From assembly GCA_002937775.1 (NCBI GenBank), contig PTKO01000006.1:1-43789 (forward strand): a stretch of 43,789 nt of DNA. The letters run 5' to 3'. Position 1 is the stretch's first letter; each line of letters opens with the position of its first letter. Both the position numbers and the translations under genes were made by a program. Positions 20,614 to 24,515 of this stretch are shown here, one piece after another. Origin of the DNA: Alphaproteobacteria bacterium MarineAlpha6_Bin4 (GTDB lineage: Bacteria > Pseudomonadota > Alphaproteobacteria > GCA-002720895). Below the pieces are notes generated by a model. That model was not told the origin of the DNA. It saw only the letters and a list, made by a program, of their open reading frames with translations, and searched no databases.

Positions 20614-20928
20614 TTAATGCAATTTATCATTTTTTTTTTTAAAACCAACCTCAAATCCTAATTTTTTTACAGATCTGTAGACATTTATAATTCCTGTTGC
20701 AAAACCAAGAACTAAAAAAATAATTAAGAAAACAGGTTTAGATTGAAAATAATTATCAAGGAAAATGCCAATTACTAAACTTACAATTATTGCAGATATT
20801 AATTCTACCCCTGATTTTAAATAAACTCCAAAATCTTTAAAATCTTTATTTTTTTTATTTTTTGACTTTGAATTTAAATTTTTTAAATTTTCTAGTCTTT
20901 TACTGAAGTCTTTAAGTTTTTTCTTCAA
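20614..20928 (-). CDS. atpI: ATP synthase protein I (AtpI/AtpZ type)
   Basis: A 104-residue accessory protein, first in the F0 cluster. The N-terminal 40 residues are lysine-rich and probably helical; two membrane helices follow (about 42-60 and 66-86), with GVELISAIIVSLVIGIFLD as the conserved part. AtpI/AtpZ proteins help c-ring assembly or magnesium supply, but the role in this class is not settled. It begins 5 bases downstream of the smc stop, so the F0 genes may be read through from the smc operon. Confidence 0.85.
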   Translation of the reverse strand: MKKKLKDFSKRLENLKNLNSKSKNKKNKDFKDFGVYLKSGVELISAIIVSLVIGIFLDNYFQSKPVFLIIFLVLGFATGIINVYRSVKKLGFEVGFKKKNDKLH

Positions 20929-20933
20929 TATTT

Positions 20934-23387
20934 TTAACTAACTTCTCTAAGTTTTTGTGCTTCTTCAAGTTTAACAGATATTAATTTAGAAACACCCGTT
21001 TCAGCCATTGTCACTCCATACAATCTATCCATATGTGCCATTGTTATTGGATTGTGTGTAATAATAATAAATTTAGTAGACGTATCTTGATTAATTTTTT
21101 TGATTACCTTACAGTATTTTTCAATATTAATATCGTCTAATGGGGCATCCACTTCATCTAAAACACAAATAGGTGAGGGATTTTGTAAAAAAACTGCTAA
21201 AATTAGAGCTGTTGCAGCCATAGTTTTTTCTCCTCCAGATAATAATGATAATGCATTCATTTTTTTCCCAGGTGGTGATGCAAATACCTCCAATCCAGAT
21301 AATAAAGGGTCAGATGAACCAACCATTTTAAGAAAAGCTTTTCCTCCATCAAAAAATTGAGTAAATAAATCTTTAAAATTTTTATTAATCCCATCAAAAC
21401 AGTTATTAATTTTTTCTCGACCTTCTTTGTTTATGCTTGATATTGTTTCTCTTAATTTCATTATTGCTTTTTCAACATCTATTTTTTCATTAACCATTCT
21501 TTCTATTTTTTTATTCGTTTCTTTTGCCTCATTTTCTGCTGTAAAGTTTATTGGTCCTATATTATCAAATTTTCTCTTTTCCGCGTTTAAATTACTTTGC
21601 AAAATATTCATTGCTGGTAGATCTTTAACATTAATTTTTTCTTTTTCTAAGAGATTCTCATCTAATTTTAAAGAAAAGTTATTTTCACTTTCTTGATAAG
21701 CATTATCTAAATCATTTTTTAAATATTCTAAATCTGTTTCTAATCTAGTTTTTTCTTCATGATGCTCTATTTTTTTATCTGAATTTAATTTTATTTTTTC
21801 ATCTATTTCTTTTGTTTGGGTTGGGTCTATTATAATTTCTTTTTCTAATTTATTAATACTTTCATCTAATAAAGCTATTTTAGCTTCAATATCTTTATTT
21901 TTATTATTTATCTCTTCAGGTTTTTTTTCTAAGATTAATAATTCATTATCAGTAAATTTTTCTCTTTCTTGAAGTTCATTCATATGTTTTTTTGCATCTT
22001 CAATTCTTTTGCTCCATTTAGAATGTTCTTCTTCAAAATCAAAAATTTTGTCTAAATTTGTTAATTTAGAAAAATTATTTTTTATATCTTTAATTGCTGT
22101 AAATACACTACCAATTTTTTCTGAAATAATATCAAAGGTATTTTTTATAGGATTAATTATTTCTGTATTTGTTTTGATCAATTCATCAATTTTAGAATTT
22201 AATTCATTTGATTTTGATATAATAAATTCAATTTTTTTGAGTTCACTTTCTATATCTTTTTTTAAATTTATAAAATTTTCTTTATCTGTATTTTTTTCGG
22301 TATTTGAAATTTTTATATCTAGCTCCTTAGTTTCATTAAATATATTTTTTTGAAGCTTAGATAGAGAGAAATTTGCATCTTCAAGAAACTTTTTTTCTCT
22401 TGAAATATCATCAGACAATTGTACTAGTCGATTTTTTAGATTTTCCTTTTGAATTGATATTCTATTAATCTCATCTAAATTTTTTTGTTTTTCTATAAGA
22501 TTATTTTGTTTTTCAATTTTTAGACTATTTAATTCGTTGTTTTTTTTATTATTTTTATTTAAAAATTTATCTTTTTCGTTTTTATAATTTTCAAGAAGAG
22601 CATCAATTTCTTTTATATTAAAATTGATTTTTTCTAACCTTTCAGTTTTTTTTTTAATTTTATCTATGTTATTGATGCATCTAATTTTTATAAGTGAAAT
22701 TTCCAAGTTATTTATCTTGTTTTTAACTGTTTTATATTTTTCTGCTTCTTTTACTTGTTTTTCAAGAATTTTATACTGATCTTTATGGGTTTTAATAATA
22801 TCATCTAATCTTGATAAATTTACATCCGCTGATTTTAGCTTAAGTTCAGATTCATGTCTTCTTGCATGTAAACCAGTAATGCCAGCCGCTTCTTCTAATA
22901 ATATTCTCCTTTCTTCAGGCTTAGATGTGATCAATCTATGAACTTGACCTTGCGCAACTATTGAAGTTGTATCTGGGCCAGATGATGCATCAGCAAATAG
23001 TAAATGTACATCTTTTGCTCTAACTACTTTATTATTTACATAGTATGTAGAACCTTTCTCTCTTTCTATTTTTCTTTTTATTTCAATAGTTTCTAACTCG
23101 TTAAATAATTCTGGTGCTTTTTTCTTTTTATTATCAATAGTAATTTCAATTTCAGCTAAATCGTTCTGAGGCCTAATGGAAGTTCCGCTAAATATTACAT
23201 CATCCATTCCTTTGCCACGCATTTCTTTTGGCGATGTTTCTCCCATGATCCATTTCAGCGAGTCTACTATATTAGATTTTCCACACCCATTAGGACCAAC
23301 AATTCCAGTTAATCCTTTTTCAATATCTAGCTCTGTTCTTTCAACAAAAGATTTAAAACCAGTTATTTTTATTTTAGTAAAATCCAT
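20934..23387 (-). CDS. smc: Chromosome-partition SMC protein, short, no visible hinge
   Basis: ATPase of bacterial condensin, which organises and separates chromosomes. Both head halves are intact: Walker A GPNGCGKSN at 31-39, the QGQVHRLI Q-loop region near 146-153, signature LSGGEK at 716-721, and Walker B VLDEVDAPLDD near 742-752. The protein is only 817 residues, against roughly 1,150-1,190 for most SMCs. Coiled-coil arms run about 175-405 and 450-640. Between them (about 405-450) there is only a short stretch and no 120-150-residue hinge with its conserved glycines. No frameshift is apparent. scpA and scpB are not in the window. It lies between a dsbA-like gene (1 base) and atpI (5 bases). 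Confidence 0.93.
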   Translation of the reverse strand: MDFTKIKITGFKSFVERTELDIEKGLTGIVGPNGCGKSNIVDSLKWIMGETSPKEMRGKGMDDVIFSGTSIRPQNDLAEIEITIDNKKKKAPELFNELETIEIKRKIEREKGSTYYVNNKVVRAKDVHLLFADASSGPDTTSIVAQGQVHRLITSKPEERRILLEEAAGITGLHARRHESELKLKSADVNLSRLDDIIKTHKDQYKILEKQVKEAEKYKTVKNKINNLEISLIKIRCINNIDKIKKKTERLEKINFNIKEIDALLENYKNEKDKFLNKNNKKNNELNSLKIEKQNNLIEKQKNLDEINRISIQKENLKNRLVQLSDDISREKKFLEDANFSLSKLQKNIFNETKELDIKISNTEKNTDKENFINLKKDIESELKKIEFIISKSNELNSKIDELIKTNTEIINPIKNTFDIISEKIGSVFTAIKDIKNNFSKLTNLDKIFDFEEEHSKWSKRIEDAKKHMNELQEREKFTDNELLILEKKPEEINNKNKDIEAKIALLDESINKLEKEIIIDPTQTKEIDEKIKLNSDKKIEHHEEKTRLETDLEYLKNDLDNAYQESENNFSLKLDENLLEKEKINVKDLPAMNILQSNLNAEKRKFDNIGPINFTAENEAKETNKKIERMVNEKIDVEKAIMKLRETISSINKEGREKINNCFDGINKNFKDLFTQFFDGGKAFLKMVGSSDPLLSGLEVFASPPGKKMNALSLLSGGEKTMAATALILAVFLQNPSPICVLDEVDAPLDDINIEKYCKVIKKINQDTSTKFIIITHNPITMAHMDRLYGVTMAETGVSKLISVKLEEAQKLREVS

Positions 23388-23388
23388 C

Positions 23389-23988
23389 TTAGTTAATTAA
23401 TTTTATAATAATTTTTTCAAAATTTTCGTAATCCATAGCACTATATTTTTTACCATTAATTATTAACGAAGGAGTAGATGTTATATTATATTTTTTTTCA
23501 GCAATTGATCTTGTTTCTAAAATTTTATCAACTAATTTTTCATCTATAAAACAGGCATTAATTTTGCTTTCTTTTAATCCAGCTAATTTTCCTATATTTT
23601 TTAAATTATTTTTATAAGTTTCATCATTTGTATTCGAAATCCATTTTTTTTGCGTTGTAAGAATTAATTTAACAAAATCAAAATATTTTTCTTTTGGTGC
23701 ACATTTTGCTAAAACAGAGCCAAATAAGGCTTGTTTATCTAAAGGAAAATCCCTAAAAATGAATTTTATTTTATTAGTATCTATATAATTTTTTTTTATT
23801 TTTGGATAAACTTCTTTATGAAAATTTGCACAATGTACACATGTCATTGAAGCATATTCTATGACAGTTACACTTGCGTTTTTATTTCCTAAAAAAACCT
23901 CTTCGTCAGTTTTTGCATTAATAATTTCATATTTATAAAAAACAAAGAGTGTTAATATGATTAAAAATTTGCCTATATTGTATTTCAT
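23389..23988 (-). CDS. DsbA-family periplasmic thiol oxidoreductase
   Basis: A 199-residue secreted thioredoxin-fold protein. The signal peptide covers about 1-25. The active site CVHC is in EYASMTCVHCANFHKEV (near 45-61), and the cis-proline loop is TSTPSLIINGKKY near 171-183. The helical insert between them fits DsbA. It probably introduces or shuffles disulfides in the periplasm; DsbD-like reduction is encoded at about 15-16 kb. Some members of this family next to smc and DUF721 genes in Alphaproteobacteria are annotated only as 'DSBA oxidoreductase', so oxidase versus isomerase use is open. Confidence 0.88.
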   Translation of the reverse strand: MKYNIGKFLIILTLFVFYKYEIINAKTDEEVFLGNKNASVTVIEYASMTCVHCANFHKEVYPKIKKNYIDTNKIKFIFRDFPLDKQALFGSVLAKCAPKEKYFDFVKLILTTQKKWISNTNDETYKNNLKNIGKLAGLKESKINACFIDEKLVDKILETRSIAEKKYNITSTPSLIINGKKYSAMDYENFEKIIIKLIN

Positions 23989-24053: not shown

Positions 24054-24515
24054 TTATTTATCACGAAATGTTTTGTTAAGCTTATTTAATGCTAATTTTA
24101 AAGATTCTTCCTTAATTTTATTAATATCTTTAGAAAAATCATCAATTTTATTTTTTACAATTTTTTTCTTTTTATCTTCATATTTAAAATTAAAATCCTG
24201 TACTACGCTGATTTTAGTAATTGCTTTATATCCTAAATATTGATTTACTTTTTCTATTATCTCTAAATTTTTAAATTCTACTTCCATCGATTTTCCTCTT
24301 ACTGTTTTTAAATAAATAACACCGTTTGAATTTTCTATATTTGAAAATGAAATTTTTATTGGAAAACATAAATTGGAAATTTTTACACCCACTATTTTAA
24401 CCCAATTTTTAATTAAAGACGTTTCTGCAAAGTTTTTTTGTTTTACATTTTTTTCTATAAATTTAGGTATGCTATCACCAATTTTTTTAAAATAACTTTG
24501 TTTTCTAAATTTCAT
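24054..24515 (-). CDS. DciA-like DUF721 protein, possible helicase loader
   Basis: A 153-residue protein of the DUF721/DciA family. Seen: an N-terminal basic helix region with GDSIPKFIEKN near 12-22, the KH-like domain with SLIKNWVKIVGVKISNLCFP near 33-52, a YLKTVRGKSMEVEFKNLEII block near 72-91, then a lysine-rich coil. DciA is the ancestral loader or accessory factor of the replicative helicase DnaB in bacteria that lack DnaC. The family assignment is good; the function here is inferred. It begins 5 bases after ccrM. In many relatives mutY lies immediately upstream; here ccrM does. Confidence 0.75.
   Translation of the reverse strand: MKFRKQSYFKKIGDSIPKFIEKNVKQKNFAETSLIKNWVKIVGVKISNLCFPIKISFSNIENSNGVIYLKTVRGKSMEVEFKNLEIIEKVNQYLGYKAITKISVVQDFNFKYEDKKKKIVKNKIDDFSKDINKIKEESLKLALNKLNKTFRDK

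Follow-up and report, generated by a model that had tools for sequence, protein, structure and literature searches.

The window analysed here, 43,789 nucleotides from Alphaproteobacteria bacterium MarineAlpha6_Bin4, carries an smc gene whose 817-residue product lacks a hinge in sequence and profile searches (20934..23387; this and all features below lie on the minus strand). Sequence comparisons suggest that hinge loss is much wider than this genome and appears to span the whole SAR11 order. We think it probable that the product is an ordinary Smc of the Smc-ScpAB condensin, in which a helical hairpin at the apex has replaced the hinge and the pairing of two subunits is held by ScpAB and the arms.

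An intact smc gene at the ancestral locus

The ends of the protein align to the corresponding halves of the head in solved bacterial Smc structures (3zgx and 5xg3), with residues 1-170 (22878..23387) making up the N-terminal half and residues 651-817 (20937..21437) the C-terminal one, also according to the secondary structure predicted by AF2. The Walker A motif GPNGCGKS (residues 31-38, 23274..23297) is invariant across 65 hingeless Smc. Together with the Q-loop and the switch histidine, the ABC signature LLSGGE (residues 715-720, 21228..21245) and the Walker B motif ICVLDE (residues 740-745, 21153..21170), it is conserved throughout the alignment of these proteins. TIGR02168 (SMC_prok_B) scored 668 bits against a cut-off of 567, the RecN and Rad50 models remained far under their own cut-offs, and a Foldseek search with the predicted structure matched Smc and other SMC-family structures. 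The heads had already been described as intact in an earlier note made from the sequence alone, and these results bear it out.

Smc is present as one copy in the genome. Upstream lie a thioredoxin-fold (DsbA-like) gene (23389..23988, PF13462) and dciA (24054..24515, PF05258), and downstream an atpI-like gene (ATPase_gene1, 20614..20928, PF09527). This order, dciA–thioredoxin–smc–atpI, is common to the window, a SAR11-type genome (L098) and a hinged relative (L099), which indicates that this is the ancestral smc locus. A search for scpA and scpB, suggested in the earlier note, found both, adjoining each other on contig C35, away from smc. The window gene is the intact, single-copy positional orthologue of alphaproteobacterial smc. 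An ATPase head, the equivalog score, antiparallel coiled-coil arms and the presence of ScpA (kleisin) and ScpB (kite) in the genome are all those of a bacterial Smc; only the hinge is missing, so that the protein is an Smc by descent and not by full architecture.

Within the window genus, mean dN was 0.04-0.05 for the heads and 0.09-0.13 for the arms and apex, with a median dS of 0.6-1.2. Such low dN relative to dS indicates that the gene is maintained, i.e., under purifying selection. Since the same architecture was also found in independent genomes, the opinion that this is not a pseudogene has held.

Hinge searches

The Pfam model SMC_hinge (PF06470) gave no match in the window protein, and none anywhere in the genome at E<=1e-3. 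One match at E 0.05 fell in an unrelated frame of 363 aa on contig C1 and was taken as chance. However, PF06470 reaches only 193 of 289 alphaproteobacterial genomes even at E<=1, and we discarded it as the sole test because it misses or barely detects many true alphaproteobacterial hinges. Given this insensitivity, we took the hinges of other alphaproteobacterial Smc, which have the invariant pattern GQ...G..WRWDG, and made a class-specific profile from them. In a first set, scored with the divergent rows excluded from the profile, it recognised the hinge in all other alphaproteobacterial Smc (30 to 159 bits), and the strongly divergent hinges that had been kept out still reached 30-96 bits. 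The window protein and its genus mates scored ~0 bits or less. Among full-length proteins, none of the 21 with a hinge fell under 32.6 bits, and none of the 86 hingeless ones exceeded 2.3 bits. The absence of a hinge, as first read from the sequence, was upheld, with nothing matched in residues 350-480, and neither profile detects a hinge in the window Smc. The CXXC motif of the Rad50/SbcC zinc hook was found in none of the 86 hingeless sequences.

Two hinged proteins deserve mention. The Smc of L057 (G040) has a hinge of only ~30 bits with the alphaproteobacterial profile and possibly an apex in transition, and the Smc encoded by a frame of 1523 aa in L055 (G030) combines a diverged hinge with unusually long arms.

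Arms, anchors and apex

Two anchors, D327 and W458 in window numbering, were fixed by alignment with hinged short-armed relatives. W458 (22014..22016), an invariant column, aligns with a tryptophan ~28 residues past the hinge of these relatives, in agreement with the resemblance noticed before between the HSKWSKR segment and the region that follows the hinge. The distance from head to D327 anchor is 150-162 residues in short-armed rows, hinged or hingeless. The W anchor and the signature lie about 250-260 residues apart in these rows, with 266 in one SAR11 family. In SAR11, the window protein, L052 and L099, the first distance comes to 155-161 and the second to about 256-257; in the window protein the latter is 257, as in L099. 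The HIMB59-like (AEGEAN-169-like) L052, and L099, have the same arm framework (head-to-anchor 158-161, W-to-signature 256-257), and L099 also the same locus order as the window, but both retain the ~113-residue alphaproteobacterial hinge that the window Smc lacks. The alignment with other Alphaproteobacteria, another check proposed in the note, showed no difference except between the two anchors, where the window protein has 131 residues versus 182-189 in L052 and L099.

Because the head-to-arm spacings agree with those of the hinged short-armed relatives to within a few residues, the apex alone has changed. The arms of the hinged HIMB59-like Smc, proteins of 865-882 aa, are already short, which means that hinge loss did not take the neighbouring arm with it. 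The note had counted ~350 missing residues and explained them by deletion of the hinge together with neighbouring parts of the arms. The shortfall is real and the hinge is gone, but the arm spacings are unchanged with respect to the hinged short-armed relatives, and to judge from the alignment most of the shortfall is an older arm shortening and not hinge deletion. What has been replaced, by a putative helical hairpin of lineage-specific length, are ~113 residues of hinge and linkers. L052 and L099, which combine a hinge with the short arm length of the hingeless proteins, represent an apparent intermediate state.

In the AF2 model of the window Smc there is only helix, with the loops of the joint, and no strand between the two head halves. 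The N-terminal arm helix, residues 171-366 (22290..22877), comprises the predicted helices 173-272 and 279-361 and has the head-to-D327 spacing of hinged relatives. The apex that stands in place of the hinge, residues 367-442 (22062..22289), is unmatched by the hinge profile, and the C-terminal arm helix with the joint, residues 443-650 (21438..22061), contains the predicted helices 443-517, 526-571, 593-610 and the start of 617-679. Helices 367-404, 408-439 and 443-517 come together at the apex, where pLDDT is only 47-64, i.e., the window apex is predicted to be all-helical at low confidence. For a SAR11 apex fragment, a single blunt hairpin was obtained, with uninterrupted helices at 2-80 and 84-182 and a mean pLDDT of 94, and the SAR11 apex is accordingly predicted as a blunt two-helix hairpin.

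The segment between the anchors has 114, 127-128, 168-174 or 199-200 residues in different SAR11 genera. Even within one genus there are two apex lengths, in proteins of 798 and 857 aa, which set L098, L131, L136, L139 and L145 apart from L073, L101 and others. The alignment divides the extra 59 residues about evenly between both strands of the hairpin, and the tree shows ~3 changes of length. A match of these steps to the arm period of 91 residues (PMC5344682) was considered, and the steps observed do not support it. One family of the SAR11 order (f174; L137, L133 and L142) stands apart from the others in its apex sequence, NSKRDDWQ...VEGYDD...W. In the window genus, a block of 23 residues, NNFSKLTNLDKIFDFEEEH.KW (residues 437-459, window 22011-22079), located at the apex turn and the start of the C-terminal arm, is nearly invariant.

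Distribution and phylogeny of hingeless Smc

The architecture of the window Smc recurs in four genus mates, with 85-87% identity, and the named records that match it are MAGs labelled Pelagibacteraceae or Alphaproteobacteria. A search of the class revealed three single-contig genomes of another family that match the window Smc collinearly over residues 1-813. A further 81 distinct full-length hingeless sequences were recovered, nearly all from a SAR11-like order. In our draw of this order (11 genera, genomes mostly of 1.0-1.5 Mb), an Smc match was present in 266 of 297 genomes, and none of the genomes had a credible hinge. The 11 weak matches (best E 0.027, none in a Smc-sized frame) were considered as a hinge encoded by a separate gene, and this candidate was rejected; most of them recur in ORFs of 397-399 aa at the same profile positions. 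In a draw of the whole class, a hinge match at E<=0.01 was found in 245 of 385 genomes. On our reading of both draws, only the window genus and the SAR11-like family have intact Smc genes that give no hinge match; about 10 other misses are fragmented assemblies, and the two that were checked are both fragments. One hingeless smc of the SAR11-like order (G489:C2:149616-152051) has an in-frame TAG.

The order appears to be Pelagibacterales/SAR11, which we infer because a classical SAR11 16S probe site was found with zero mismatches in four genomes of the order, and no such match was seen in the hinged relatives tested.

A tree of the heads only, built without actinobacterial sequences, recovered the SAR11 order as one clade (100/97) adjoining a hinged family (f49), and left the window genus on a long branch. 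In AU tests, neither a single clade of all hingeless rows (p 0.18) nor a grouping of the window genus with the HIMB59-like rows (p 0.36) was rejected, so the hinge may have been lost once or twice.

Relation to known systems

The window protein shares with the canonical bacterial Smc (TIGR02168) the head motifs, the coiled-coil arms, the joint, the scpA and scpB partners and the synteny of the locus, and differs from it in the absence of a hinge, the short arms and the helical hairpin at the apex. Hingeless Smc as a kind was already known, since hinge-less SMC proteins were reported in a clade that is abundant in the sea and carries the annotation Actinomycetes (Sussfeld et al. 2025, PMC12153180). 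According to their published description, from which we draw the contrast, those proteins likewise have a Smc-type head and coiled coil without hinge or CXXC hook and are oceanic, but they branch with actinobacterial Smc. The proteins described here are, in contrast, alphaproteobacterial orthologues whose hinged relatives occupy the same locus, and for the window Smc both synteny and nearest matches are alphaproteobacterial. Neither SAR11 nor Pelagibacter is mentioned in the main text of PMC12153180, and a literature search, which missed most subscription papers, found no report of a hingeless Smc in either. What is new is the alphaproteobacterial case, in which hinged relatives share the locus and the SAR11 apex could be modelled with confidence.

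Rad50/SbcC also has a head and an antiparallel coiled coil without SMC hinge, but the CXXC zinc hook is absent here and the Rad50 models score far under cut-off. An engineered B. subtilis Smc carrying the Rad50 zinc hook (PMC5344682) is likewise without SMC hinge; that construct has a substitute dimerisation domain, whereas none is recognisable in the window Smc.

How two subunits may pair

In B. subtilis, Smc functions with the Rad50 zinc hook in place of the hinge and is inactive once hinge dimerisation is abolished (PMC5344682), so that some substitute for the dimerising role is to be expected. Without its hinge, B. subtilis Smc still shows some dimerisation, credited partly to arm contacts (PMC5526789). 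Dimerisation would differ in the window lineage and, as it seems, throughout the SAR11 order. Under the reading that we favour, ScpA would bridge the heads of two Smc subunits, while the ScpB dimer, ATP-driven head engagement and arm-arm (rod) contacts would help to hold the pair. The apex would be free or in no more than a loose pairing. No hinge gate would be needed for DNA entry or loop capture, and instead of forming a permanently closed ring the complex would work as a short clamp. The variable length of the SAR11 apex and its ordinary hydrophobicity make it most likely that the pair is held by ScpAB, heads and arms; a span that varies from 114 to 200 residues, with ~3 changes of length, is what would be expected if the apex were not a precise dimer interface. 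The stricter version, by which Smc in the SAR11 order, and separately in the window genus, is never dimerised at the apex and works as an open clamp closed at the heads by ScpAB, is possible, although we lean slightly against it.

The main rival is that the apex hairpin is a new minimal dimerisation module, two hairpins packing into a four-helix bundle that keeps the ring closed. We consider this unlikely, if worth serious attention. An unrelated dimerisation domain can stand in for the B. subtilis hinge (PMC5344682), and in the window protein the helix 408-439 has a broad hydrophobic face, with a regular a/d stripe plus I410, I420 and F429. This face and the near invariance of residues 437-459 within the genus may suggest pairing at the apex, which would speak against a free one. 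On the other hand, near its tip the SAR11 hairpin has just the ordinary hydrophobic pattern of a two-stranded coiled coil, apex length and sequence differ between and within genera as a conserved interface should not, and the zinc hook is missing.

A separate protein that caps or joins both apices in the hinge's stead is a very improbable solution. The strongly conserved sub-apical segment of the SAR11 proteins, DANSNEKRLKEEK..., could be a binding surface for it, but there is no candidate, with nothing new beside smc and no hinge-like ORF elsewhere in the SAR11 genomes. We give still less credit to a strongly diverged hinge that is present and goes unrecognised. PF06470 is certainly weak in Alphaproteobacteria, and the apex of some SAR11 genera reaches ~130 residues. 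However, the custom profile detects left-out divergent hinges and finds none here, the commonest class has ~48 residues available compared with ~113 in a hinge, and the apex is predicted to be all-helical; for the short apex class, the modelled SAR11 hairpin speaks against a diverged hinge. Equally hard to credit is a protein turned into a RecN- or Rad50-like repair ATPase that is no longer a condensin: the hinge is gone and the arms are short, but this is the sole Smc of a genome that retains scpA and scpB, and it passes the cut-off of the Smc equivalog while falling far short of those of the RecN and Rad50 models. Finally, as the window genome is a MAG of 69% completeness, one might suspect a decaying pseudogene or an artefact of assembly. 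Both are refuted by independent genomes with this architecture, namely four more of the genus, those of named MAG records and single-contig SAR11-like ones; low dN/dS and full catalytic motifs also speak against them.

Implications

The hinge is treated as a defining and essential part of SMC proteins, and models of DNA entry and loop extrusion make use of it. A large and deeply sampled order that keeps Smc and ScpAB under selection without it is a natural experiment, with the material for the test at hand: hinged relatives on the same arm framework and hairpins of several lengths. The hingeless lineages should include cultivated SAR11, and the function of the hinge could be tested directly by exchanging hinge and hairpin between relatives. 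Our results also suggest that the hingeless marine SMCs reported in 2025 (PMC12153180) are part of a wider pattern among ocean bacteria. If the open clamp is true, neither the hinge nor any dimerisation domain at the apex would be essential for a condensin in nature, and this would be seen in an exceptionally abundant bacterial lineage.
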